Assembly: GCA_016124895.1 (NCBI GenBank)
Contig: WGMU01000178.1
Location: forward strand, 1-37,193
Direction of reading: 5' to 3'
DNA from: a bacterium
GTDB lineage: Bacteria; Planctomycetota; Planctomycetia; Planctomycetales; Planctomycetaceae
Length of the DNA: 37,193 nt
The position numbers and the translations under genes were made by a program. The notes under the pieces are model-generated. The model was not told the DNA's origin. It worked only from the letters and a program-made list of their open reading frames with translations, and did not search any database. This document shows positions 17,675 through 37,193 of this stretch, in pieces (the first letter of the stretch is position 1; each line of letters opens with the position of its first letter).

Positions 17675-17763
17675 GGAGAGGTGGCAGAGTGGCCGAATGC
17701 GCATCATTGCTAATGATGTGACCGGGTCAAACTGGTCCGAGGGTTCGAATCCCTCCCTCTCCG
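17675..17763 (+). tRNA. tRNA-Ser (anticodon GCU)
   Basis: The acceptor stem GGAGAGG at 17675-17681 pairs with CCTCTCC at 17756-17762, with discriminator G at 17763; CCA is not encoded. The anticodon stem CATCA/TGATG encloses the loop TTGCTAA, giving anticodon GCT at 17709-17711 (reads AGC/AGU). A long variable arm with stem-forming ACCGGG.. and ..CTGGTCC is typical of class II tRNA-Ser. The T-arm GAGGG-TTCGAAT-CCCTC is perfect. The island recombinase gene ends inside it on the other strand, marking this tRNA as the probable integration site. Confidence 0.97.
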
Positions 17764-19238
17764 CTTGTTTTTAGAAACCGCCCTTCGACGAGTACGTCGA
17801 AGGGCTTTCTCATCTCCGGGCAAAGGGTTACGCCGTCGAGGGTGCAGTTCAAACACACGATTTCGAGCAATCGCCGCTTCGTGGCGTAATCAGCGGTAAG
17901 CCATTGCTCCTTCAAGGTTTGCGAGAGTTCAAACACTTTGGCTGCCAACTCCGCCGTTTCGTCGTGGGAGCGGTCCAGCACATCCAGTTGCAGATTGATC
18001 GAAGCCAGCCGGTCGCGTAGCTCCGTGTGCTTCCTGGCGAAGGCATCCTGATCGATATCGTCGGCCAGCCGCATGTTGAGCAGACGGTCCTGCTGCTGGA
18101 TGAGCAGCGACTCCTGCCGGGTCAGTTCGGCACGCTGAGCGCGGCTGTCGGCCTGGGCATCGCGGGTCTGCGATGCAAGGACCATGCGGAACCAGTCGCG
18201 GACGGATTCGTCCTCGACTTTCATCTTGTCGAAGATCGCCAGCACCTGAGCTTCGATGTCAGCTTCCTTCACGCGGATGCGGGGATGGTCGCCCTTGGCA
18301 TAGCGGGCACAGCGGTAGTAAACGTGTTCGTTGACGCCGCCATCCTTCCTCTTCTTCCTGACCAGTTCGCCAGTGACCGGATGGCCGCAATGGCCGCAGG
18401 TCATGAACTGGCCCGCGTAGGTCAACGTCGTGGCGTGATGAACGTGACCACCGAGGAGTGCCTGCACCCGGTTCCAGGTCGCCCGGTCGATCAGCGGTTC
18501 ATGCTTGCCGGGATACCATTGCCCCTTGTGCTGGATTTCGCCGATGTAGCACCGGTCCTTCAACATCGTGTGGATCGAGGTGCGAGGGAACCTTGGCTGT
18601 GATGGACGGTACACGCGGCCTTCGGAGTTGATCTTCGCAACCACGCCATCGAGCGTCAGGTTTTCGTAGGCGTAGAGATGGAACATCCGCTTGACGTTAT
18701 CCGCCTGCTCGGGATCGGTCTCGATGACGCCGCGACCATCTTTGCGGATGTTGCGATAACCGTAAGGAGCCGGTCCGCAGAACCAGCCTTCCTTCACGCG
18801 GCGGGCAATTCCTTCGCGGACATCGACCGACATCTGTTCGGTGTAGAAGCTCGCCATGTTGGCGAGTGTCCTGCGCATCATGCGACCGGCGGGCGTGTTC
18901 TCAGTCGGCTGCGAGATGGAGATGAACGGCAGGTTGTGTTCCGATTCCAGCCGTTCGAGTTCGACGTAATCGAACAGGTTCCGCGATGCCCGGTCAACCT
19001 TGTAGAACAGCAGGCCATCGAGAGCGAAGGCATTCTTCTTGGCGTAGGCGATCAGCTCGCGGAACGTCTTGCGTTGCTCCCCTTTGCTCGCTGTCTCGGC
19101 GATCTTGAAGAACTTGACGATCTCACCGCCCGCCTGGGTCGCGTACCGCTTGAGACCTTCCTCCTGCACTTCCAGGCTGAAGCCCTCGCGTTCCTGTTCC
19201 CGGCTGCTGACGCGGGCCAAAGCGGCGAACTGTTTCAT
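17727..19238 (-). CDS. Large serine recombinase (integrase)
   Basis: The ATG at 19238 follows a good GGAG and begins MKQFAALARVSSREQ, the resolvase N-terminus with catalytic Ser11; an upstream extension to 19298 is unlikely. Order of parts: resolvase domain at about residues 3-150 (including YKVDRASRN), recombinase domain at about 160-260 (APYGYRNIRKDGRG), a zinc-ribbon at about 285-330 with CGHCGHPVTGEL and a later C-A-R, and a coiled-coil stretch at about 350-440. At 503 residues it is normal for large serine integrases, which join attP and attB without host factors. The final residues (EGGIRTLGPV) are the tRNA-Ser gene read backwards, and the stop codon is also in the tRNA. The C-terminus is therefore completed by chromosomal DNA. 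Confidence 0.9.
   Translation of the reverse strand: MKQFAALARVSSREQEREGFSLEVQEEGLKRYATQAGGEIVKFFKIAETASKGEQRKTFRELIAYAKKNAFALDGLLFYKVDRASRNLFDYVELERLESEHNLPFISISQPTENTPAGRMMRRTLANMASFYTEQMSVDVREGIARRVKEGWFCGPAPYGYRNIRKDGRGVIETDPEQADNVKRMFHLYAYENLTLDGVVAKINSEGRVYRPSQPRFPRTSIHTMLKDRCYIGEIQHKGQWYPGKHEPLIDRATWNRVQALLGGHVHHATTLTYAGQFMTCGHCGHPVTGELVRKKRKDGGVNEHVYYRCARYAKGDHPRIRVKEADIEAQVLAIFDKMKVEDESVRDWFRMVLASQTRDAQADSRAQRAELTRQESLLIQQQDRLLNMRLADDIDQDAFARKHTELRDRLASINLQLDVLDRSHDETAELAAKVFELSQTLKEQWLTADYATKRRLLEIVCLNCTLDGVTLCPEMRKPFDVLVEGRFLKTSGEGGIRTLGPV
17780..17810 (+). terminator. Intrinsic terminator downstream of tRNA-Ser
   Basis: GCCCTTCGACG at 17780-17790 pairs perfectly with CGTCGAAGGGC at 17795-17805 across a four-base loop and is followed by TTTCT. 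It sits 17 bases past the tRNA. The same bases encode a C-terminal stretch of the recombinase on the minus strand. Confidence 0.7.
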
Positions 19239-19332
19239 GGCGTTACTCCAAGACCAACCGGGAACAAGAAGCCTTTTGAATGGCCTTATTCTACCCAAGT
19301 TCCCGGTGGTCAGGGAGATTCAGCCGGTCCCT

Positions 19333-21004: not shown

Positions 21005-22786
21005 TCATGGACCCGCCGTGACGTGCGGGTTGTGTGAGGGGTGAGCCAATAACGCTGCCGCCATCCGCACCCCCAGGACGGACACCAGCGACAGAAGCAG
21101 GACGGCGGCAAGCCACACTTCCGCCTTGACCCTGAAGCGCTTCCACCAGGAAGGCCCCTTTCCCAGGGACGGTTCCTCGAAGTAGCGAATAAGCGTGGTT
21201 CGGATCGGCGGCACACCCGGCGCGAAGGTGATCGCTGAGCGCGGGTTGAGTCCCGCGACCTCTTCGGGCTTCAACAGCTTCCTGGCATGTTGCTGCCAGT
21301 TCTGGCTTACATTCCAGGACGTGCCTTCGGTTCGGTTGCCGCCTTGGTTGCTGACCTGCGTCGAGCCGCCCGTGCTCGTGCCGCCTGATTCGACGATGAT
21401 CGTGGACTCGCCAAGCCGTGAACTCACATACTCGGCCGTTTGCAAATCCGACACACCGAAGAAGACTTGCGTCGTATTCGACAGCAACGTCTGGTCCGCC
21501 CCTTCGGGCCAGCATTTCTTCAACTGGCCAACCGACTGGTAGTAGAACTGGAGCCGCACACCGTAGCCCCGGTACTTATCCACCGCGTCATCGAGTGCGT
21601 CCATGTGGCCCAAGGACGCCGCCTCGTCCAACACGAAATGCACCTTGTTCGTCTCTTGCAATCCGCCACGCACCACGGCCCGAAGCAAGGCTCCGATCCA
21701 CATGCGAAGCAGTGCCGATTGCGCCCGCATATGCTCCGGTGGCAGCACCAGATAGACGGTCATCTTGCCATTCGGCAGTTCTCGGGGATCGAATGTGCTG
21801 GCCTTCGTACTGTGGGCGATGGCCAGCGTATCCAGGAATCGCAAGAAGCGATTGGTCGTGGTCAACACCGACGACAATTCCTTGCCCTCGAACTGCGTCA
21901 ACTGATGCCCCATGCGGGCAAGCATCCCGTCCCATGCCGTGGACTCGCAGGCAAGCTTGATGACGGCTTGCATCTTTTGCGGGTTGGTAAGGAGCGTCCG
22001 CAAGGTCTGGAGCGTGCGGTCAGCCGGTTCTGCATATTGCGTAATCAGTGCCGCCATCGCCGCGATCCAGGATTCCGCTGAATCGCACCAGTGCGGTTCT
22101 TTCTCTTGGCCCGTGCGAACCACCAACGCTTCGGCCAGGTCGCGGCAATCGTCAATCGCCAGCGCCGACTCGCTGTCAATCATGTCGAACGGGTTAAACG
22201 TATCAGGCGAGTCGGTTGTCACCTTGAACGGATCGAGGATCACGATCTTGTGACCGAACTGTTCCGCGCGGTGCCTGGCGGTGAGCTTCGCGTTCTCCCC
22301 CTTGAAATCCACCACCACCATTGATTCGCGGCAGGTCAGCAGATGCGGGATTACGCAACTGACACCCTTGCCGACGCCCGTCGGAGCAAAGACCGCCACA
22401 TGCACGGCTTTTGAAAGCCGCACCAGTTGCGGCGGAGCCGGTTGCAGCTTCCTCATCGAAAACACAAACCGCTCGCACGCCACGTCCGAGGCGATGCGCG
22501 GATTGAACAGGCCGATCAGCGACGCGGCGAAATCCGGACGCGACACCTGCATCCGCCCCAGTATCAACCCGTTGCCACCGGCAAGCATTCCCGAGCGCTG
22601 CATGTCCGCTGCATCCGCCCAGCGTGCCGTACCGAAGGCCGTCAGTTGGTAGCCCTTCCTGGTCGCCATGCCCAAGGCGATCAGTGCCGGTAGCACCCAG
22701 GCCCAGGGCACGGTGACGCACACCAGTGCGACCACCGCCGCCACAATCACCACCGACAGAATCAACAAGGCTCGGCAGTATCGCAT
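21005..22786 (-). CDS. VirD4/TraG-family type IV coupling protein
   Basis: The protein has 593 residues. Two N-terminal transmembrane helices lie within residues 7-45, followed by a cytoplasmic ATPase. Walker A is APTGVGKG at 134-141 and Walker B is VHFVLDEAAS near residue 386. TraG-type sequences MVVVDFKGEN and LDPFKVTTDSPDTFNPFD follow Walker A. The T-x-x-F-F-G-V-S-D-L-Q-T-A-E-Y block near 440 is also typical of VirD4 proteins. It would be a hexameric inner-membrane pump that docks the relaxase-DNA complex to a secretion channel. It is slightly short and has an unusual extra hydrophobic stretch at the C-terminus (WLAAVLLLSLVSVLGVRMAAALLA), predicting a further membrane helix. Its start overlaps the upstream gene by 25 bases, showing coupling. 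Confidence 0.92.
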   Translation of the reverse strand: MRYCRALLILSVVIVAAVVALVCVTVPWAWVLPALIALGMATRKGYQLTAFGTARWADAADMQRSGMLAGGNGLILGRMQVSRPDFAASLIGLFNPRIASDVACERFVFSMRKLQPAPPQLVRLSKAVHVAVFAPTGVGKGVSCVIPHLLTCRESMVVVDFKGENAKLTARHRAEQFGHKIVILDPFKVTTDSPDTFNPFDMIDSESALAIDDCRDLAEALVVRTGQEKEPHWCDSAESWIAAMAALITQYAEPADRTLQTLRTLLTNPQKMQAVIKLACESTAWDGMLARMGHQLTQFEGKELSSVLTTTNRFLRFLDTLAIAHSTKASTFDPRELPNGKMTVYLVLPPEHMRAQSALLRMWIGALLRAVVRGGLQETNKVHFVLDEAASLGHMDALDDAVDKYRGYGVRLQFYYQSVGQLKKCWPEGADQTLLSNTTQVFFGVSDLQTAEYVSSRLGESTIIVESGGTSTGGSTQVSNQGGNRTEGTSWNVSQNWQQHARKLLKPEEVAGLNPRSAITFAPGVPPIRTTLIRYFEEPSLGKGPSWWKRFRVKAEVWLAAVLLLSLVSVLGVRMAAALLAHPSHNPHVTAGP

Positions 22787-23201: not shown

Positions 23202-23990
23202 TTATGGTTTCTTGGCCTTGTCGCGCATGACGGCGGCAAACGTTTTGGCATCGAGTGATTGGTCGCGTGCCTTCCTGGCTTCCTTCTGTGCTTCACCGAG
23301 GGCGTCGATGAAGTCATCCAGCGACAGTTCTTCCCCCGATACCGCGACCTTCACGCCCGACGGCAATGGGAACGCAATCCGTCTCGCCCGCACTTGCGGC
23401 GCGCTGGACTGCTTGTGCTTGCGAACCCGCTCGCGCACCGCGTCGCGGGAGGCACCGGTTTCCTTGAGGTGAAGCAGTTCGACCTGTTCAGCTTCAGCGA
23501 CACGGCTCAACTCATAGGCCGTGGTGATGCCGATACGACCGGCTTCGAGGGCGTCCTGCACATCCTTGGTGCAACGCGATGGCGACAGGTACTTGGTGAC
23601 CGATCCTTCCGACAGCTTCAGATGTTCGGCCAGGTCCTTGTTGGACCAGCCTTCATTGAGCCGCAGCAACTCCTCGCAGGCTCGCCATTTCTCGGCATCG
23701 GTCAGGTCCGAGCGATGCACGTTCTCCGTCAGTTGGAAGACGCGGATTTGCGTGTCGGTCAGGGCTTCGTCGGTGATGATGACCTGAAGGTCTTTAAGCC
23801 CAACGAGAGACGCAGCACGGAAGCGGCGTTCGCCGGCAATCAGCGTCCCATCGGGCTTCGCCAGCACGGGCTGCAACTGCTTGACCTTGAGCGACTCGCC
23901 AAGGCGGCGAAGTTCCGCCTCATCGAAATGCCGGCGGGCTTGCGGTGCGGTCTTGAACCAGGAAAGCGGCTTGTGAGTGAGGTTTGCCAT
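23202..23990 (-). CDS. parB: ParB/Spo0J-family DNA-binding protein
   Basis: The protein has 262 residues and a strong AGGAG ribosome binding site. The N-terminal nucleotide-binding domain contains LKVKQLQPV and the signature GERRFRAA at 53-60 (the CTP-binding arginine box), then FQLTENVHRSDL. The central HTH follows as NKDLAEHLKLSEGSVTKYLS at about 127-146. A charged C-terminal region ends it. ParB proteins bind parS and slide as CTP-gated clamps. No parA is encoded in the window and no parS-like palindrome was noticed beside it. In the promoter-proximal position of a transfer operon it may serve as a regulator, as KorB does, or as a segregation factor for the excised circle. Confidence 0.9.
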   Translation of the reverse strand: MANLTHKPLSWFKTAPQARRHFDEAELRRLGESLKVKQLQPVLAKPDGTLIAGERRFRAASLVGLKDLQVIITDEALTDTQIRVFQLTENVHRSDLTDAEKWRACEELLRLNEGWSNKDLAEHLKLSEGSVTKYLSPSRCTKDVQDALEAGRIGITTAYELSRVAEAEQVELLHLKETGASRDAVRERVRKHKQSSAPQVRARRIAFPLPSGVKVAVSGEELSLDDFIDALGEAQKEARKARDQSLDAKTFAAVMRDKAKKP

Positions 23991-29034: not shown

Positions 29035-29547
29035 TTACAAAAACGCACGCGCATGGGCTTCCAGCCATTCCTTCATTGCGGCATACGACTCGAATTCCGC
29101 CACCTGGATGCTGTCGATGGTCGGGCCGGTGTCTCCCACCTGCTGGACTTCCTCGGCGGCCATTTCACGCAGCCACAGCACACGATGCCGCTGTAATCCG
29201 GCACGCACAAGGTCGATAGTGCCATCGCCGAGCGGCCGGTCGAGATTGCTTCCCCGGATCAGCACCAGGTACACCATGTCGCCGGAAAACTTCAGCAGCA
29301 GCCCCTCGGATGGATTGAAATGCCAGTTGCCCATCCAGCTATAGGGAAACCACACGCTGTTGCCGTCCTTGAAACGGAACTCCACAATCTCGGCACGGTC
29401 GCGGATTCCGCGAAGATAGCCGAAGGCCGGGCAGGATGCTTCGCCCTCGTCGGCATCCGTTTCCCGCGAATGCAGGATGCCACTGAGTCCCGATGGTTGG
29501 GATGAGCGTTGCAGACGCTCTTGATGCGTCGGTTTATCATCGCGCAT
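29035..29547 (-). CDS. Hypothetical protein coupled to the MobF relaxase, 170 aa
   Basis: The start codon lies inside the last codons of the relaxase gene (11-base overlap), so translation is coupled. The N-terminal 50 residues are charged and probably flexible. From about residue 55 there is a compact alpha/beta stretch: EIVEFRFKDGNSVWFPYSWMG, then a Gly/Phe strand LLLKFSGDMVYLVLIRGSNL, DLVRAGLQRHRVLWLREM and a C-terminal helix. It contains several conserved-looking aromatic residues and no signal or membrane segment. It has the look of a small DNA-binding or effector-binding fold, but I recognise no family. Close coupling to mobF suggests a transfer accessory. Confidence 0.7.
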   Translation of the reverse strand: MRDDKPTHQERLQRSSQPSGLSGILHSRETDADEGEASCPAFGYLRGIRDRAEIVEFRFKDGNSVWFPYSWMGNWHFNPSEGLLLKFSGDMVYLVLIRGSNLDRPLGDGTIDLVRAGLQRHRVLWLREMAAEEVQQVGDTGPTIDSIQVAEFESYAAMKEWLEAHARAFL

Positions 29548-32215
29548 GGTCTATCTCCCGTTGCTCGGCCCCGTTTCCCGCCGGATGGCTGCCGTTGCGT
29601 GCCGCGAATACCCCAGCGCCACGGGCGAATGCCAGCCGCTTGGCAAGGCGTCCCCGCAACGATGTCTGTTCGGACGGCGCAATCTCCGTTGCCGACGTCG
29701 GATCATCTGGCCGAGCGACTACCTTCAGTAATTCTTCCTTGTCGTCTGTGAAGATCACGGCCTGTTCCCGCCCTCGCGTCACGGCCACATAGGCCGTTCG
29801 CTGGCAGGTCGCCGGGAATGACTCGCTGGAGATGCCCACAAACACCTTGTCCACCGTCGCGCCCTGGCTGGCGTGACTCGTGACGACGTAGCCATGCGCA
29901 AAATGACCAAAGTCCCTGGCGATGACCCAGCCATGATCGACAACAATGTCGCCGGACTTGGTAAAACCCTGCACGGTCATCAGCGAGCCATTGCTGAGTC
30001 GGTGTTTGCCGTCCTTCGTCTTGCCACCGGCGGTGACGCGGATGCGATCCCCGGCCGCGAGCGCCAGCGGTGCGGGCCGGTAGACCTCGAATCGCTGCGC
30101 CTGTTCGACAGGAGGCTTGCTGCCTTCGGCCAGGATCAGCCGCTCCCCCTTGGTATAGCCTTTCGCGTTCTGGTGAAATTGAATCAGGTCACCCGCTTCG
30201 TATTCCGTGTGGTCGGTCTTCTGCGCGTCGGTCAGGTGCGTCGGCAACCACCGTTCGATGACATGCTCTTCCCCGAGCTTGCCTTGGGCTTTCAGACCAT
30301 CGCGAATCGCCTGCGTGATGCGATCCGCTTCCGCGTGCGTCGGAGACACGACCAAAGCGGACTTGTGCCCACCGCCGCGTTTCTTTTCCTCGACTGCGCC
30401 GAGATAGGCAGAGGCCAATTGCTCGTTACGCTCCTCATCATCGACTTGCCTGATCCATCCCAGCCGGTCGAGCTGGTCGAAACCCTGTTGCGTGTTACCT
30501 TCGCTCAGTGCCTTTGACGCCTTCTTGTAGCTGCCCTGCTGCCGCATGATTTCGGTGACTTGGGCCACCTTCAGCCCGGCTTTTTCCTCCAGGAGCCGCA
30601 GCGGCTCCCCGGCTGTCACGCTCCGATGCTGCTTGCGATCGCCGACCAGGATCACACGAGCGCCCACCGCATCGGCGACTTTGAACACGCGGTGCATGTC
30701 GCGCGTGCCAAGCTGGCTGGCCTCATCCACGAGAATGACACCACCCCTTGCCGCCTCCTGCATCCCCGTATCCCGGAAAAACCTCGCCACCGTATCAGCC
30801 AGCTTGAAGCCGGCCTCCTCACGCAGCACTTCACGGCTCGCCTTGACGCTTTGCGCCAACGCGACCACCGGGACGCCCTTGACCGCCAACGCTTCACCGA
30901 TTTCCTGTTCCAGCGTCGTCTTCCCCGTGCCCACCGCACCACGGATCAGCATCCCCCTGTCACGCGATGTGAGCACATGCGACACGGCGGCCTTTTGACC
31001 ATCGTTGAACCAGTCCCGCGAGCACACATGCTCCGGGAACAGAGGACGGCACCGCCCGCGCCCGTCGCGGGCGAAGTCTATCAAACCCGATTCCAGGCCG
31101 AGCATCTCTTTCGTTGTGGCCATCGCCCGCCCGTCAACATCCTTGCGGATAAGTGACCTTGCCCGTAGCTCGCTTGCGGTTGCTTCGACCGTGACCGAGC
31201 CAAGCCCGCGTTTCAACGCTTCCGTGAGCAGCTTCCGCTCCGGCACGACGGCCTCGCGGACATAGACATGCTCGATGGCATGATCGACCGCTTTCTTCTG
31301 GCCAGGCTCCGCTTTAGGGGCTGTCTTCTCTCGGCGGTGGATGCTCGCCAATAGTTCACGCTCGGTATCCGTCATCCGGGCGTCCCATTCCTTCCGCAGT
31401 GAATCCCAGTTGAGGGCGTGACCCTTCTTCTCGCGGGTTTCGGCCCCCAGTTCCGCCTTGCGGTCGGGGCTGGTGATACCCTTGTCCTCCGCCACCTTTT
31501 CAATGAGGGCTGTGCGCCGCGAGAAACGCTTGAGCATGTCGGCGGGGATACCCGAAATCTCGAAATCATCCCGCTTACGTTCGACGCCGAAGCCCAGGTT
31601 CTGTAGTTTTCCCGCGAGCCGGACGCGAAAAGCCGCCTGGAAATAAGGCGCATCGCGTTTGAGTTCCCGGAACTGGCCCGCCTTCCAACGATGCTCCTTG
31701 TCGTCCCAGGTCGTGTTGAAGGTGAATACGTGGGCATGCAACTGCGGATCGGGGAGACCATCGACGGGCCGTGACGTGGTATGGATGAACTCCGCCCAGA
31801 CCATGTTGCCTGTGGTGCGGTCGGTATCCTGCCGCCCCTTGCGGACGCGGGTCTTCATTTCCGCTTCCATCTCGCGCATCGTCTCATCGACCGCGCTGCG
31901 GAAAGCTGCGAGAATGTCCTGATCGCCGCTCATGGCATAGAGCAGTGACACGGACTTCGGCACGGAGAACGTGAAATCGTAACCGACGGTCCGCTCGGTG
32001 CGTGTCCGCACCGTCAGCGGTCTTCCGGTTGTGGGATCGAGATTATCGCAAAGACGCTCGAAGGAGAACTTGTCAACGGTGCCCGATAGACCCAGCCGGT
32101 CAGCGCCCTTGCCGCCCCAGGAGCCGACAATCTCCTGGCCTTCGCTGTAATAGTCTGCCGTCGCGTAGTAACGCTTGGCACCCGAGGCAGATTCCTGTTG
32201 CGAGATACGAATCAT
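29537..32215 (-). CDS. MobF-family conjugative relaxase-helicase (TrwC/TraI type)
   Basis: The 892-residue protein opens MIRISQQESASGAKRYYATADYY, with two tyrosine pairs (Tyr16/17 and Tyr22/23) as in TrwC-type relaxases. The metal-binding histidines are His145, His160 and His162 (IHTTSRPVDG ... QLHAHVF). The C-terminal half is a RecD-like SF1 helicase: Walker A GAVGTGKTT at about 427-435, Walker B-like VILVDEASQLGTRD, VILVGDRKQHRS and the terminal VVTSHASQGATVDKVFV and YVAVTRGREQ. It nicks oriT, stays covalently on the 5' end and unwinds the strand. All motifs look intact. GAGGT is almost adjacent to the ATG, an unusually short spacing. The coupling protein is encoded about 7 kb away on the same strand, on the other side of the cargo. 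Confidence 0.93.
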   Translation of the reverse strand: MIRISQQESASGAKRYYATADYYSEGQEIVGSWGGKGADRLGLSGTVDKFSFERLCDNLDPTTGRPLTVRTRTERTVGYDFTFSVPKSVSLLYAMSGDQDILAAFRSAVDETMREMEAEMKTRVRKGRQDTDRTTGNMVWAEFIHTTSRPVDGLPDPQLHAHVFTFNTTWDDKEHRWKAGQFRELKRDAPYFQAAFRVRLAGKLQNLGFGVERKRDDFEISGIPADMLKRFSRRTALIEKVAEDKGITSPDRKAELGAETREKKGHALNWDSLRKEWDARMTDTERELLASIHRREKTAPKAEPGQKKAVDHAIEHVYVREAVVPERKLLTEALKRGLGSVTVEATASELRARSLIRKDVDGRAMATTKEMLGLESGLIDFARDGRGRCRPLFPEHVCSRDWFNDGQKAAVSHVLTSRDRGMLIRGAVGTGKTTLEQEIGEALAVKGVPVVALAQSVKASREVLREEAGFKLADTVARFFRDTGMQEAARGGVILVDEASQLGTRDMHRVFKVADAVGARVILVGDRKQHRSVTAGEPLRLLEEKAGLKVAQVTEIMRQQGSYKKASKALSEGNTQQGFDQLDRLGWIRQVDDEERNEQLASAYLGAVEEKKRGGGHKSALVVSPTHAEADRITQAIRDGLKAQGKLGEEHVIERWLPTHLTDAQKTDHTEYEAGDLIQFHQNAKGYTKGERLILAEGSKPPVEQAQRFEVYRPAPLALAAGDRIRVTAGGKTKDGKHRLSNGSLMTVQGFTKSGDIVVDHGWVIARDFGHFAHGYVVTSHASQGATVDKVFVGISSESFPATCQRTAYVAVTRGREQAVIFTDDKEELLKVVARPDDPTSATEIAPSEQTSLRGRLAKRLAFARGAGVFAARNGSHPAGNGAEQREIDHAR

Positions 32216-32455: not shown

Positions 32456-33655
32456 CTACTTCTTGGCTTCTTTCTTCTTCGCCGCTTCGTCCAGATAGTC
32501 CGCCCACCACTGCATCATTTCGCGGCGTTCGGGCAGGTACTGGGCATGGTTGTACGCGGCACGCACTTTGTTCCGTTCACCATGTGCAAGCTGCCGCTCA
32601 ATGACATCCGGTCGAAATCCGTGTTCATTTAGGATCGTGCTGGCTGTACTCCGAAAGCCATGTCCCGTGGCCTTGTGACGGTAGCCCATGCGATACAGAG
32701 CGTAAAGCATCGTGTTCTCGCTCATGAACGTTGCCGGGTTGGTCTCGCTCGGAAAGATGAATTGCCGGGTACCGGAATGCTGCTGCAACTCGTGCAACAC
32801 CGCAATCGCTTGTTTGGACAGGGGAACGATATGCTCTTCCCTCATCTTCATGCGTTCGGCCGGAATTCGCCATTCGGCCTTTTCCCAGAGGATTTCCTCC
32901 CATCGTGCGGCTCGCAGTTCAGTTGTGCGGACAAAGGTGAGGAGCAGAAACTGTAAGGCCAGCTTGGTCAGTGGTGTCCCCACATAGGCAGCCAGGCGTT
33001 CCAGGTACTCCGGCAGTTCCGACTCCCTCAGATACGCACGATGTGTGACGACCGGTGTCTTCAAGGCCCCTCGAAGATCGTTGACTGGGTTCCGTTCAGC
33101 TCGCCCTGTGGCGATGGCGTAACTAAAGACCTGAGAAATGATATGAGACACGCGTCGGGTCATCTCCAAAGCACCTGAAGCTTCCACAACCCGGAGTACC
33201 GCGAGAACCCCCGGTGCATTGATTTCAGCAATCGGTTGGTGCCCCAACCTTGGCTGTATGTGCCGTTCCAGGCGATCCAGCACCATTCCGGCCGTTTTCG
33301 GAGACCACTCGTGTTTTCGCTGCTCGTACCACTCTTGAGCGATGGCTTCAAAAGTGTTGGCGGCATTGAGGACCGCCGTTTGTTTGGCCTGCTTCTTGGC
33401 ATCACCGGGGTCGTTTCCGGCTGCAAGCACCTTTTTCGCCTGCGCCCGACGGTCGCGAGCATCCGCGAGAGTCACATCCGGATAGACTCCCAATGCCAGC
33501 AGCTTTTCCTTGCCGAAGAAGAAGTATCTTAATCGCCAATACTTACTGCCGTTTGGCATGACCACGAGGAATAGCCCCTCGCCATCACTTATCTTGTAGG
33601 GCTTGGTTTTGGACTTCGCATTCCGAACTGCTGCATCTGACAGAGACTTGGGCAT
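32456..33655 (-). CDS. P4-type tyrosine integrase
   Basis: The ATG at 33655 gives 399 residues starting MPKSLSDAAVRNAKSKTKPYK. The N-terminal arm-binding domain (KISDGEGLFLVVMPNGSKYWRLRY, then LGVYPDVTLADARDRR) is the DUF4102 type of P4 integrases. The core-binding domain spans about 95-195. The catalytic domain contains an arginine in FVRTTELRAARW at about 240, HGFRSTAST at about 330 (the H-x-x-R motif), and LAHGERNKVRAAYNHAQY with the nucleophile tyrosine near 368. All catalytic positions are present, so it should be active. Such enzymes normally integrate at tRNA 3' ends next to their own gene, but no tRNA is adjacent, suggesting a merged or displaced element. No strong ribosome binding site precedes the start. 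Confidence 0.92.
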   Translation of the reverse strand: MPKSLSDAAVRNAKSKTKPYKISDGEGLFLVVMPNGSKYWRLRYFFFGKEKLLALGVYPDVTLADARDRRAQAKKVLAAGNDPGDAKKQAKQTAVLNAANTFEAIAQEWYEQRKHEWSPKTAGMVLDRLERHIQPRLGHQPIAEINAPGVLAVLRVVEASGALEMTRRVSHIISQVFSYAIATGRAERNPVNDLRGALKTPVVTHRAYLRESELPEYLERLAAYVGTPLTKLALQFLLLTFVRTTELRAARWEEILWEKAEWRIPAERMKMREEHIVPLSKQAIAVLHELQQHSGTRQFIFPSETNPATFMSENTMLYALYRMGYRHKATGHGFRSTASTILNEHGFRPDVIERQLAHGERNKVRAAYNHAQYLPERREMMQWWADYLDEAAKKKEAKK

Positions 33656-33676
33656 GAAGAGCAAGAGACGCTAACT

Positions 33677-34154: not shown

Positions 34155-34711
34155 ATCGACATCCTTTTCGAGTCATCGGCTCCGGCGGTGGTAGAAGCAC
34201 ATCCTTGATGAGCCAGATCATTCATACTGCGACACTTCATTAACATTAGCACGACTCCCGCCATTTTGTCTCGGAGATTCGCACTGACAGCCAGTTTGCC
34301 AGCAATTCCGTCTCATGACGAGATTCGACGGTGCAGCGTCCCAAAGTGAAACGGCCCAGAAACGCTATCCATCCCGGCGGCTACTGAGCCAGCCGAGCAT
34401 CTTCGGTTGTGAAGTCGATGCCCGGAACTGAGTTGCGATTTGTACCTGGAGTATCGGCTTCTCATTTGCCTCGCTGCTGAGACAGTGTGGCCTCCCCTCT
34501 TTCCTGGCCCGTTCATCCGCGAACACGGCCTTCTTCTGAGCACCGGTAAAGCCGCCGCCGGGCCGCTCAAGCTGCCAAGGCCGCTTTCCAAGGGAAGCCT
34601 TCGGCCTTTCGCTTGCCCGGTGCGCCAGTGCCCCGGACTGGGGCGGCTTTGTGGGGTGCCATAAGGCCGCGACGGTCGCGGCTTCAAACTCAAAGAGAAG
34701 GAGACCAACTC
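34155..34711. other. GC-rich structured leader before the plus-strand cassette
   Basis: No gene is supported. Near the right end GCCCC/GGGGC form a hairpin at 34630-34644, and GCCGCGAC/GTCGCGGC form a perfect 8-1-8 palindrome at 34666-34682, ending just before the AAGGAG that serves the first cassette gene. The left part (34155-34440) should contain the alpA promoter, but no clear boxes were found. Confidence 0.5.
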
Positions 34712-34921
34712 ATGTCCAACAGCAAGAAAGGCGATTCCGCGTCTAAGGCACCCAGCCACATCGCCTACCAGGTTCGTGACCGCGACGGCCAAAAGGGATT
34801 CTGGACCCGCATCGGCAGCGTATGGCCGCACGCGGACGGCAAGGGCTTCAACATCCAGCTTGAAGTCGTTCCCCTCGACGGACGAATCACCATCCGCGTC
34901 GCTTCCGAGAAGAAAGACTGA
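34712..34921 (+). CDS. Small mobile-element protein, 69 aa
   Basis: AAGGAG is well spaced before the ATG. The sequence (SHIAYQVRDRDGQKGFWTRI, then HADGKGFNIQLEVVPLDGRIT) is a compact all-beta protein of a type carried by many proteobacterial integrative elements, where its role is not known. The fold pattern (beta-strands with G-F-W and D-G-R-I-T turns) and positive N-terminus (MSNSKKGDSASK) might suit an OB-like nucleic-acid-binding fold, but that is speculative. It leads the plus-strand cassette of six tightly packed genes. Confidence 0.75.
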   Translation: MSNSKKGDSASKAPSHIAYQVRDRDGQKGFWTRIGSVWPHADGKGFNIQLEVVPLDGRITIRVASEKKD

Positions 34922-34973
34922 TTAACCCAGGGCGGACCGCAGTGTCCGCCCATCACCTGAAAGGATTTCGATC

Positions 34974-35126
34974 ATGCAACAGCACAATTCATTCGCAACC
35001 ACTTCAGATTTCATCCGGCACCTTGATGACCTCTCCGCCGGGTGCGACACCGACTTCGACACGGCTTACGACGACCTCGACCGCGAGTTCGCCGAACTAC
35101 GCCTCTCATTCCGCAACGGTGAATAG
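34974..35126 (+). CDS. Small acidic protein, 50 aa
   Basis: CTGAAAGGATTTC precedes the ATG, the same leader pattern as two other cassette genes. The acidic product contains FATTSDFIRHLDDLSAGCD and DTAYDDLDREFAELRLSF, i.e. two predicted helices rich in Asp and Glu. An acidic character this strong would suit a DNA-mimic or antirestriction-like role, but nothing more can be claimed. The stop is followed eleven bases later by the methylase ATG. Confidence 0.6.
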   Translation: MQQHNSFATTSDFIRHLDDLSAGCDTDFDTAYDDLDREFAELRLSFRNGE

Positions 35127-35136
35127 GGAGGCGATG

Positions 35137-35889
35137 ATGAACTACTTATTCTCCACCGTGAATCCTTTCTACGCCCGGCGTATCAATCGGGACGCAACGA
35201 GGAACGAGGCGTGTGACCGGCCCGTCTACGCCAGGCTCCCTTTAGCCCCGCGTAATGCCTCCCCCGTACCGCACCTGACGAGCCTTTACCATTTCCACCG
35301 CGCCGGTGAGTATGGTGACCGCAAATGGCCCGGCAATTGTGGCGGCAACCTCATCAAGGATTTACTGGCCTACTTCCAACCGGATGGCTTGGTCTTCGAC
35401 CCCATGTCCGGCTCCGGAACGTGCGCCGACGTGTGTAAGGAACTGGCAATCCCCTGCATTTCGTGGGACATCCACCAGGGATTCGATGCGTGCGACCCGC
35501 AGCAATTCCCAGAACCCGAATCGCTCGGTTTCATCTGGGCACATCCGGCCTATTGGCGTCAGAAGCTCTATTCGAAAGACCCGCGTGACCTGTCACGGTC
35601 GCCAACCCTGGATCACTTCCTACGGCGATACGGCCAGTTCATTCGCAACTGTGCCAACGCCCTCAAGCCCGGCGGAAAACTCGTCATCCTGATGGGTGAC
35701 TACCGCGACCGGGAGGCCGGTTACGTCCCCCTCACTTTCCACACGAAACGGCTTGCCTTCGACGCCGGACTCCAGCAGTGCTGCACTGACATCATCCGGT
35801 TCAGCCACGGGGCCAGTAGCAGCAAGAAAGTGTATCGCAGCAGTTTCATACCCGGCCTGCACGACACCTGCATGGTCTTCACAAAGTAA
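35137..35889 (+). CDS. DNA methylase-like protein (N4/N6 type)
   Basis: Two ATGs stand in tandem at 35134 and 35137. The second is at a better distance from GGGAGG, giving 250 residues. Motif I, the AdoMet-binding DPMSGSGT, is at 88-95. The catalytic motif IV position reads HPAYW at 136-140 instead of the usual (D/N/S)PPY/W. The rest (CANALKPGGKLVILMGDYRDREAG and PGLHDTCMVF) matches the N4-cytosine/N6-adenine methyltransferase fold. The altered motif leaves catalysis uncertain. There is no restriction endonuclease gene nearby, so it is an orphan methylase, plausibly protecting incoming element DNA. It sits within the compact cassette. Confidence 0.75.
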   Translation: MNYLFSTVNPFYARRINRDATRNEACDRPVYARLPLAPRNASPVPHLTSLYHFHRAGEYGDRKWPGNCGGNLIKDLLAYFQPDGLVFDPMSGSGTCADVCKELAIPCISWDIHQGFDACDPQQFPEPESLGFIWAHPAYWRQKLYSKDPRDLSRSPTLDHFLRRYGQFIRNCANALKPGGKLVILMGDYRDREAGYVPLTFHTKRLAFDAGLQQCCTDIIRFSHGASSSKKVYRSSFIPGLHDTCMVFTK

Positions 35890-35917
35890 TCCGAAACAAC
35901 AACTGAAAGGCGAATTT

Positions 35918-36178
35918 ATGGCCATACGCAAACAGCTAACCAGTACGGCGATGTTCTACACACCGGGATTGTTCCGAGCCTTGCAGAACGATTACCGCAT
36001 CAAAGGCAAGGCGCGTCGACTCGCCGTCCAAATACTCAGCGACGGCTACGGGTTGCCTGTGGTAGAGGCCCGTGGCTTACTGAGCGGCTCCATTTCGGTG
36101 GAAGTCGACGAAGACACCGGCACTGTCACCTACGAAGTGCCTGACTCCATTCCGAGCATGTCCAAGCCTCAATCCTGA
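35918..36178 (+). CDS. Small hypothetical protein, 86 aa
   Basis: CTGAAAGG precedes the ATG. The product, MAIRKQLTSTAMFYTPGLFRA and following, has a basic first half (NDYRIKGKARRLAVQILSDG, helical). An acidic second half contains the short beta-strand pair ISVEVDEDTGTVTYEVPDS. It probably folds as a small alpha/beta domain. No named family is recognised, and it is known to me only as the type of hypothetical protein that travels in these cassettes. Confidence 0.65.
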   Translation: MAIRKQLTSTAMFYTPGLFRALQNDYRIKGKARRLAVQILSDGYGLPVVEARGLLSGSISVEVDEDTGTVTYEVPDSIPSMSKPQS

Positions 36179-36190
36179 AAGGATTCCAGC

Positions 36191-36520
36191 ATGACAGAGA
36201 CCTTTATCGAACTTACCGAAGATGAATTCGACGACCAATTTCCACTGGTCCCAAACCACATCAATCCGTCCGCCGGATGGGCCGTCGGCGATTCCGGCGG
36301 TTGCCTGTTCGAGACTTTCGGCGAGGAGTTCGCCTTTGTCCGTCGCCACGATCCCCGGAAAGTCTGGACGCTGGTTGATGGCGACGACGGTGACATGTAC
36401 GTCATCAGCGGCTGCCACTTCGTCAACCGTATCGGCTACCTGATTAGCCGCGATTCCGTCCCGGATAACGCCACGATCCAGGTCCATCTTCCCATGCAGA
36501 CCGACGAGGACGAGCAATGA
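36191..36520 (+). CDS. Small mobile-element protein, 109 aa
   Basis: CTGAAAGGATTCC precedes the ATG, the same leader as the 50-aa gene. The product reads FIELTEDEFDDQFPLVPNHI, GGCLFETFGEEFAFVRRHDP, KVWTLVDGDDGDMYVISG and FVNRIGYLIS. It is an acidic alpha/beta protein whose strands end in conserved-looking Gly/Asp turns. Similar proteins occur in proteobacterial integrative elements. Function is unknown. Its stop overlaps the next start by four bases (ATGA), indicating coupling. Confidence 0.7.
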   Translation: MTETFIELTEDEFDDQFPLVPNHINPSAGWAVGDSGGCLFETFGEEFAFVRRHDPRKVWTLVDGDDGDMYVISGCHFVNRIGYLISRDSVPDNATIQVHLPMQTDEDEQ

Positions 36521-36693
36521 CCGGCAGTGACGATACCCTCGACACCATCCTTGATGACCTGTTCCACGGCTGCGCTGTTGCAGCCTTTGTCGAACTGGCA
36601 AACAAGCGTGGCGTGTTCCCCGACCAGGAAGCGACCAGGCAGCTTGCCTACCGGTTCTACGAGGACGCGCTGAAGACGAAAGGCAGGGGGTGA
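36517..36693 (+). CDS. Small hypothetical protein, 58 aa
   Basis: The ATG overlaps the stop of the 109-aa gene. MTGSDDTLDTILDDLFHGCA and VAAFVELANKRGVFPDQEAT are two predicted helices with an acidic surface, and a short basic tail ends the chain. It is the last gene of the cassette. Its stop codon lies in the centre of a GGGGG/CCCCC inverted repeat (36686-36700), a possible weak transcription barrier without a T-run. No family is recognised. Confidence 0.6.
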   Translation: MTGSDDTLDTILDDLFHGCAVAAFVELANKRGVFPDQEATRQLAYRFYEDALKTKGRG

Positions 36694-37193
36694 ATCCCCC
36701 ACGGCGTCAAGGATGCCCTTCGGCGTCCGGCGCGGCCCCTCCCTAGCTTCCGCGCTCCCAAAACCTCGCTTGTGCAGCCAGGGAGACCCTCCACACCTAC
36801 CGTCCTTGACTCCGCTCCCCCCTTGCATCTTTTGGGCTTCGCCCCCCTTCCGCCGAAAAACGCTTTGGCGTTTCGCGTAAGGGGACATCATTCATCAGAC
36901 ATGCAACTTGTCCCAGGCTGGGACGCAGTATTCCATTGCCAAACGTCGCACGCTGTGCGACCGTCAACACACCCGTGCTGATACCTCCTCCAGCACGTTC
37001 GTTTGCCTCTGGTTCCCCCTCGCATTCCCTCTTGGAAGCAGAGCAAAGTTTGCGATCATTCCAAACACATTGAGTGACAGGCGTCTTCCCTATGCACTGC
37101 ATAGGCTGGATTTCCCGGGGAAATCCGGCCGAAAGCGCGGGAATCCGCCTGCTGCGTCGTCACTCGTTACCATCGAGCCGGTATCATCGCTTC
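36694..37193. other. Gene-free, hairpin-rich region at the right edge
   Basis: I see no gene here; short frames on either strand lack coherent protein character. The left part has small hairpins such as GGGC-TTC-GCCC at 36834-36844 and AAACGC/GCGTTT at 36858-36873. The right part holds the cluster of perfect palindromes listed separately. It may contain an origin, an attachment site or the leader of a gene beyond the window. Confidence 0.5.
36910..37126. repeat. Cluster of five perfect inverted repeats
   Basis: The repeats are: GTCCCAG-G-CTGGGAC at 36910-36924; GTCGCAC-GCT-GTGCGAC at 36945-36961; CGTGCTG/CAGCACG with a 10-base loop at 36974-36997; CCTATGCA-C-TGCATAGG at 37089-37105; and GGATTTCCC-G-GGGAAATCC at 37108-37126. 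The arms are 7-9 bp and the sequences differ from one another. The last two are only two bases apart. Confidence 0.7.

Follow-up and report, generated by a model that had tools for sequence, protein, structure and literature searches.

The DNA analysed here (the window, 37,193 nt) is a whole contig from a genome of 8.1 Mb; it ends 67 bases past the last of a group of palindromes at its right-hand side. The conserved part of the palindrome region, 37078-37126, is referred to as the core; the genes and elements to its left are the following:

17675-17764, plus strand: tRNA-Ser, its 3' end overlapped by the large serine recombinase ORF
17727-19298, minus strand: large serine recombinase ORF, CcrB-like
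21005-22786, minus strand: type IV coupling protein of the TraG/VirD4 type (PF02534, 6.8e-75)
23202-23990, minus strand: ParB-domain protein
29537-32215, minus strand: MobF relaxase-helicase, 892 aa (PF08751, 5.7e-71)
32456-33664, minus strand: tyrosine integrase
34713-34922, plus strand: small gene of the predicted leading region, reading toward the core
34942-35889, plus strand: DNA methylase-like gene of the predicted leading region (ORF as listed; the true start is probably further right)
35918-36178, plus strand: small ORF reading toward the core
36191-36520, plus strand: small gene of the predicted leading region
36517-36693, plus strand: small ORF reading toward the core
36684-36890, minus strand (the predicted transferred strand): R2, a structured element of 209 positions

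The tRNA-Ser and the serine recombinase (17675-19298) possibly form the left end of the island, its attachment end. The relaxase also matches PF13604 (3.7e-45; SF1 helicase, C-terminal) and NF041492 (200 bits, cut-off 100), as well as the solved TrwC and TraI structures (PDB 1omh, 2a0i). Its N-terminal region carries KRYYATADYY and IH...QLHAH, which we take to be the tyrosine-pair and histidine-triad motifs of MobF; loose versions of the patterns are present in 38 (tyrosine) and 40 (histidine) of 41 relaxases, missing L162 with both and L178 and L182 with the tyrosine pattern. PF08751 was detected in 27 of 99 related genomes. Coupling-protein matches over the cut-off were found in 22 of 32 genomes and PF03135, the sole VirB4 model used, in 1 of 25, so that a canonical mating-pair system is not demonstrated; the apparatus is either absent, provided in trans, or diverged beyond what PF03135 recognises. 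A separate observation concerns 34523-34712, the non-coding DNA upstream of the ORF 34713-34922, which is conserved at 69-87% over touching matches and is matched more than once in some relatives (L040, L045), making it a second candidate regulatory structure.

A reading of this DNA made from the sequence alone (the sequence-only reading) had pointed to five perfect inverted repeats, three of them centred on a single base, packed into the gene-free stretch 36910-37126 at a density above that of random DNA:

36910-36924: inverted repeat, arms 7 bp, centre 1 nt, sequence not conserved in relatives
36945-36961: inverted repeat, arms 7 bp, centre 3 nt, sequence not conserved in relatives
36974-36997: inverted repeat, arms 7 bp, centre 10 nt, sequence not conserved in relatives
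37089-37105: inverted repeat, arms 8 bp, centre 1 nt (hairpin 1)
37108-37126: inverted repeat, arms 9 bp, centre 1 nt (hairpin 2)

All five repeats are present where they had been placed, and the one-base centres (36910-36924, 37089-37105, 37108-37126) are correct. None of 20,000 dinucleotide-preserving shuffles of 36910-37126 reached five repeats (shuffle mean 0.11), a generous control, since the stretch was picked after the repeats had been seen. A fairer control is the whole window, which contains 43 such repeats (0.25 per 217 nt), giving a Poisson probability of about 7e-6 per stretch for at least five; among 217-nt stretches taken on a 10-nt grid, four repeats were found only at this cluster and the maximum elsewhere was three. 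A chance origin of the palindromes is ruled out by the shuffles and the window-wide density. The description of 36910-37126 as gene-free is also supported: among the ORFs crossing it, only the plus-strand 36908-37192 clusters with another ORF, its sole partner being in locus L087, which has the same DNA as the window from the core to the right.

A DNA search of 99 genomes (including the window's own) gave matches in 16, and the non-coding matches fell mainly either in 36684-36888 or in the right palindrome pair (about 37075-37131), blocks whose mutual distance varies between relatives. In the alignment, conservation begins abruptly at 37078, and the flank beyond this position is variable. When the species genome collection was scanned with a degenerate pattern, the core was detected in 32 further loci with replaced flanks: 27 planctomycete by record (including one 'Kuenenia' and one Blastopirellula marina DSM 3645), four labelled 'bacterium' and one Porticoccaceae. 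The core pattern had no match in the viral contig collection, nor had 36500-37193 a plasmid match. Among the five palindromes, conservation between elements is confined to the right pair, 37089-37126, which rules out a single five-part palindrome array and does away with the treatment of the five repeats as one group; the essential part also takes in 37078-37088, outside all five palindromes. The sequence-only reading had named palindromes lost amid preserved surroundings as the pattern that would speak against it: the right pair displays the opposite, palindromes kept and flanks replaced, and the three left palindromes show no sequence conservation.

Pairwise comparison of 400-nt flanks gave no sequence counterpart for these three left palindromes (36910-36997). 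Repeats as such are enriched close to the core: the 300 nt to its left contain 33 inverted repeats in 31 loci (three of them the window's) compared with 7.1 in shuffles (4.65-fold), and the region 60-360 nt to its right contains 22 compared with 6.9. The ratio in other flank stretches was 0.65 to 1.7, with one exception of 2.6 at -900 to -600 (15 vs 5.8). Perfect repeats recur across relatives near -57 to -23 and -157 to -127, and the window has near the first of these an imperfect inverted repeat:

37032-37064: inverted repeat, imperfect (75%), with its right end 13 nt from the core; several relatives have perfect repeats near there

The left-flank repeats may correspond to transcription ends, accessory-protein sites or structures of the transferred strand (T-strand).

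The core and its surroundings comprise the following elements:

37078-37088, minus strand: predicted nic sequence, read on the minus strand as GAAGACGCCT^G, near-invariant in 32 aligned cores
37089-37105, minus strand: hairpin 1, a putative IR2-like relaxase-recognition inverted repeat
37108-37126, strand not applicable: hairpin 2, the distal palindrome, whose sequence falls into classes that all keep the symmetry
37139-37151: distal arm of an outer stem, pairing with 37078-37090 around both hairpins (13 nt, 85% complementary in the window)

On the plus strand, the 5' part of the core reads CAGGC[GA]TCT[TC]CC and is followed by hairpin 1 and then hairpin 2. In the 32 aligned cores, 97.3% of the cells of hairpin 1 are paired, with compensatory changes at 3 of its 7 pairs; further variants of this hairpin exist in additional cores, and its sequence tracks the relaxase phylogeny. 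Hairpin 2 has 76% of its cells paired and compensatory changes at all 9 pairs, and its classes (TTTCCCGGGGAAA, TGGAACGGTTCCA, TTGCACCGTGCAA and TTTCACCGTGAAA) are unrelated in sequence, each of them keeping the inverted symmetry. The compensatory arm changes that the sequence-only reading had proposed looking for in an alignment are thus present in both hairpins of the right pair. The covariation of the core hairpins was 0.33 compared with 0.116 in shuffled alignments; four of five measures were reached by none of 500 shuffles and the fifth (pair types) by 40, and a sliding control peaked at the true register. The structure of both core hairpins is under selection. An exact complementary run of at least 8 nt, corresponding to the outer stem, was present in 13 of 33 loci (0.20 expected from shuffles), with compensatory versions in L060 and L072, and in the window this stem is imperfect (longest exact run 6); the outer stem is common, not universal. 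When the minus strand of 36895-37170 was folded (this strand alone), the z-score was -3.76.

The minus strand of the core reads GCATAGG (hairpin 1 arm), GAAGACGCCT and then G, that is, a spacer of 10 nt from the hairpin to the predicted nick. The motif preceding this nick was GCCT in 27, GTCT in 4 and GTCA in 1 of the 32 aligned rows, followed by G in 31 and A in 1, counts to be read with the fact that 25 of the rows were gathered with a pattern fixing most bases of 37078-37088, including GCCT and the +1 G. All 11 new cores have G(C/T)CT and a purine at the 10-nt spacer, as the parsing expression required. In diverged cores the ending is GACGTCT or GATGTCT, similar to the TTGTCT of R388, and sequence conservation in the cores stops at the +1 base.

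The association of the core with the relaxase was analysed in the 24 genomes with cores, in which 41 cores were listed (18-mer, at most two mismatches) and the relaxases were located with PF08751. A relaxase lies within 20 kb of 25 cores, and in all 25 cases it is left of the core, reads left and has its start toward the core, at a distance of 78 nt to 17.6 kb. Fourteen of the other 16 cores have no relaxase on their contig (eight of these contigs are shorter than 25 kb) and two have a distant one only; five of the 16 are probably chance matches, since all are two-mismatch matches failing R1, the covariance model built from the cores. In a sample of 392 genomes of the phylum, R1 matched 13 genomes and PF08751 15 (14 over the cut-off), with 10 in common; five of the 15 relaxase genomes had no core match. 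The sample provided 18 core matches, 14 of them unused in building R1: eleven of these are in relaxase genomes, all eleven within 15 kb, on the relaxase strand and upstream of the relaxase, and the remaining three (E 6e-4 to 6e-3, in genomes without relaxase) may be chance. In total, the 37 linked cores of these main counts (window included, relaxase within 20 kb) all have the relaxase on one side and in one polarity.

R1 detected five extra cores (L039, L045, L046, L049, L051) in 20-kb stretches that had been retrieved for other purposes, and these agree in polarity with the relaxase DNA mapped there; ten cores in stretches fetched upstream of relaxases agree too, this search being biased toward that outcome. 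Scanning the DNA upstream of 28 relaxases without known core with R1 gave 8 cores at E<=1e-4 and two more at E<=0.05, compared with 4 in an earlier hairpin search of the same regions; 18 of the 28 are still without core, some because the contig ends. Distances between the 18-nt nic sequences and between the relaxase domains were correlated in 41 pairs (Mantel r 0.84; none of 10,000 permutations reached it, the best being 0.48), four of these pairs coming from the biased upstream search and lying outside the 37. The core goes with the neighbouring MobF relaxase in linkage, polarity and co-inheritance. The genome holding the Gemmataceae locus L069 (G110) has an unusual MobF load, with 12 PF08751 matches and 4 cores.

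These results bear on whether the palindromes are operators, or the promoter region, of the relaxase or of the leading-region genes, as could be suggested by the elements in which the core is 72-100 nt upstream of the relaxase domain and by hairpin 2, whose one-base centre would be unusual in a hairpin but suits a dimer bound to duplex DNA and is typical of dimer-binding sites. Elsewhere, 2-18 kb separate the core from the relaxase, in the window with opposite-strand genes in between; no promoter was found in 34400-37193 by a duplex scan for sigma-70-like sites, which does not cover all promoter types; and operators do not predict a GTCT^R motif beside a hairpin that tracks the relaxase. We consider this explanation very unlikely.

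Pairs of loci reveal exchange at the core. The window and L087 have a right flank that is 100% identical for 116 nt, up to the contig end, and unrelated left flanks; L065 and L081 share the left at 94% and differ entirely on the right; the right is common to L069/L076 and to L078/L088, with at most 25 nt on the left, and L069/L080 share the left only. The genes right of the core in L087 (WGNR01000003.1) look by eye like what we take to be a mercury-resistance operon, and the window may continue into such genes because its right flank equals that of L087. From these comparisons, the flanks appear to undergo modular exchange at a predicted origin of transfer (oriT), which fits relaxase-mediated recombination at the nic site, a reaction reported for TrwC (PMC4176350), but equally ordinary recombination in common sequence. 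The same flank exchange (window/L087, L065/L081), together with the sharp left edge of the core, could be expected from the terminus or target of a rolling-circle transposon (IS91/ISCR/Helitron-like) or from an attachment site. In such an element the relaxase, ParA and RepA clusters would not be on fixed sides outside any single bounded unit, as they are here, and relaxase-mediated or homologous exchange at a common oriT gives the same pattern; we give this interpretation only a slight chance.

On the right of the core are genes for ParA (all 11 pointing away from it), RepA_C (all 4) and a large helicase/methylase (all 10), or else cargo. The ParA (11 loci) and RepA_C (4 loci) genes, and the ParB gene in the window, would suit a plasmid replication origin or partition site (oriV, parS). 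This is scarcely credible, given that 36700-37193 contains no iteron array, just short two-copy direct repeats, that cargo replaces ParA/RepA on the right in L058, L063, L083 and L087, and that the constant association is with the relaxase. Restriction-modification-like and helicase genes were recognised by eye right of the oriT in L058, L063 and L083, with cluster partners in L075, L084 and L086, a possible defence-island slot.

Comparison with relatives argues that 37078-37126 is the nic region (core) of an oriT used by the MobF relaxase of the same island (29537-32215), an assignment to which we give a probability of roughly 90%. The sequence-only reading had listed oriT as one of four analogues between which the sequence alone could not decide; sequence and relatives together do point to one of them, oriT, which is well supported for the right pair and its nic sequence, the five palindromes not being one unit. 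Its suggestion that 37089-37126 is a pair of protein-binding sites likewise holds in part: 37089-37105 fits a relaxase-recognition inverted repeat, and 37108-37126 is probably either a structural or an accessory-protein site. The site is most likely of a known kind, for which we found no planctomycete example described: no planctomycete oriT or MobF relaxase was recognised among the papers listed by a literature search that had most subscription papers outside its scope.

The polarity of transfer is less secure than the identity of the site. A layout like that of R388 and F, in the core a hairpin, 10 nt ending in G(C/T)CT and a purine, is present on the minus strand only. If the plus strand were transferred instead, the right side (ParA, RepA, cargo) would lead, preserving the R388 gene order with the relaxase last; some of the loci have, right of hairpin 2, a mirrored copy of the nic sequence on the plus strand, R1 matches the opposite strand weakly in L126 (22 vs 80.2 bits), and wobble pairs in the core hairpins give no strand signal (G.T 15 vs A.C 21), so that they do not favour the minus strand. 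Under that polarity, however, the conserved bases would be on the wrong side of the hairpins, the DNA right of hairpin 2 not being conserved throughout; the GTCT^purine of diverged cores fits R388 on the minus strand only; and the ArdC and methylase-like genes are on the left, reading toward the core. We regard transfer of the plus strand as improbable and keep it under consideration mainly because the relaxase gene is on the leading side when the minus strand is read as transferred: the R388 order, with the relaxase on the trailing side, is then not found, an order that is not functionally required.

With the minus strand as the transferred one, the leading side would be the left side, on which the named gene clusters keep one orientation, toward the core, across the 33 loci. 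The small gene 34713-34922 (cluster 5) is left of the core on the plus strand in 11 of 11 loci; the methylase-like gene (cluster 9) is left of the core and reads toward it in 10 of 10; and the family of 36191-36520 (cluster 0), with 26 ORFs from 16 loci, lies without exception on the plus strand and left of the core. The anti-restriction gene ArdC, assigned with Pfam on one representative, is left of the core and reads toward it in all 7 cases among these loci, and is absent from the window itself. In an F-like leading region, genes against host defence are encoded close to oriT and have the transferred strand as their template; ArdC (7/7) and the methylase-like gene (10/10) represent this arrangement here.

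The other conserved block, R2, was analysed in 25 distinct copies. In an alignment fitted to the minus-strand model, so that pairing and wobble counts lean toward that model, 95.3% of the cells are paired, 27 of 53 pairs have compensatory changes, and minus-strand wobbles are G.T in 88 and A.C in 11 cases; none of 500 shuffles reached the observed value on any of five measures. The consensus energy for nine sequences is -70.7 kcal/mol on the minus and -55.1 on the plus strand, so R2 folds on the predicted transferred strand, as expected of an Frpo/ssi element. The duplex scan of 34400-37193 for sigma-70-like sites gave no -35/-10 elements in R2. At 14 distinct places with a located core, all 15 R2 copies are on this strand, 188-8780 nt downstream of the predicted nick. 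The orientation of R2 agrees in L039, L045, L046 and L051; in L049 and in G026:C28 and C29 the strand is the same, with R2 located 12-19 kb away on the core's other side; and a copy in G043 (4082732) has the orientation opposite to that of the nearest relaxase, which is 20 kb away, and is not accompanied by a core match. Within the sample of 392 genomes, R2 was found in six, five of which have both core and relaxase. A known RNA family was rejected for R2, which has no Rfam match; the window's only Rfam match is the tRNA, and one sub-threshold match lies outside R2. The intrinsic-terminator-like site at the minus-strand 3' end of R2 in the window would suit a small RNA, but the relatives in the alignment show no T-run behind the hairpin.

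A transfer mechanism can be proposed from the homology with R388 TrwC and F TraI. The relaxase would bind GCATAGG, the minus-strand arm of hairpin 1 nearest the nic, together with the next 10 nt; it would cut the minus strand at GAAGACGCCT^G, between 37079 and 37078, and stay on the 5' end, the minus strand being sent leftward. R2 (36684-36890) would enter after about 190 nt and be followed by the small genes 34713-36693, for which the transferred strand would be the template; hairpin 1 would refold on the returning strand to allow termination. Together, hairpin 2 and the outer stem probably form a further site, either structural or for an accessory protein, and the three left palindromes would be non-conserved repeats of the leading-side flank. 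Nick position, strand and direction, and the roles of hairpin 2 and R2, are in this scheme inferred by analogy. In R388, according to PMC4176350, the proximal arm and the single-stranded stretch are needed, as is a purine at +1, and any base is tolerated at positions 27-32.

A further, tentative and rather doubtful proposal is that these elements represent a planctomycete MobF lineage with an oriT reversed relative to R388, in which the leading anti-defence genes and the relaxase gene would enter first and R2 (209 nt), sent by many of them shortly after the nick, would be a new structured single-stranded class (serving the transferred strand as promoter, as primer or for loading the relaxosome, or else a same-sense small RNA required for transfer). 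The inverted polarity and R2 raise two questions: the order in which the genes reach the recipient, and the way in which the first of them are expressed while the second strand is still lacking. In practical terms, genetic tools for planctomycetes are few, and a predicted oriT with its cognate relaxase offers a concrete handle; the R1 search model recognises planctomycete MobF elements even in fragmented contigs of metagenome-assembled genomes that lack the relaxase; and the nic and relaxase variants, paired in about 40 elements, lend themselves naturally to the study of relaxase-DNA specificity.

R388 (NC_028464.1) and F (NC_002483.1) served as yardsticks. F has leading genes (psiB and others) that point at oriT and for which the transferred strand is the template, as predicted for the planctomycete elements; F differs in its nic sequence and in having the tra genes on the trailing side of oriT (traI beyond the stretch read), and no R2 match was found in the F stretch searched. 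The arrangement hairpin-GTGGGGTGT^GG was found in the F sequence, where we take the nick to be at GTGGGGTGT^GG, 9 nt after the hairpin. R388 resembles the window's elements in its MobF relaxase, in the hairpin 5' of the nick (spacer of 9 nt in R388, 10 here), in GTCT (or GCCT) followed by a purine, and in its leading side, which has ssb and a zincin-like metallopeptidase gene, presumably ArdC, reading toward oriT. Its transferred strand consists of a hairpin, 9 nt and the nick, GTATTGTCT^A, the nick being placed as in PMC4176350. R388 differs in that its hairpin sequence is unrelated, in that the planctomycete core has two hairpins and a partial outer stem, and in that its relaxase gene is on the trailing side, compared with the leading side here, so that the planctomycete oriT is inverted relative to the relaxase gene.

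The Ptw plasmid of Burkholderia cenocepacia is also of the MobF type, and the sign by which its oriT was identified was a surplus of inverted repeats next to the operon of the relaxase; an R388-like nic site was not found in the Ptw oriT according to PMC4853378, whereas a nic motif is recognisable in the planctomycete core. R2 can be likened, by structure and position, to two elements: the Frpo/ssi single-strand promoters, located in the leading region (PMC11541004), and the sgm-sRNA of SGI1, located beside oriT (PMC9299015). The first of these sources also describes anti-defence genes of the leading region as encoded on the T-strand.
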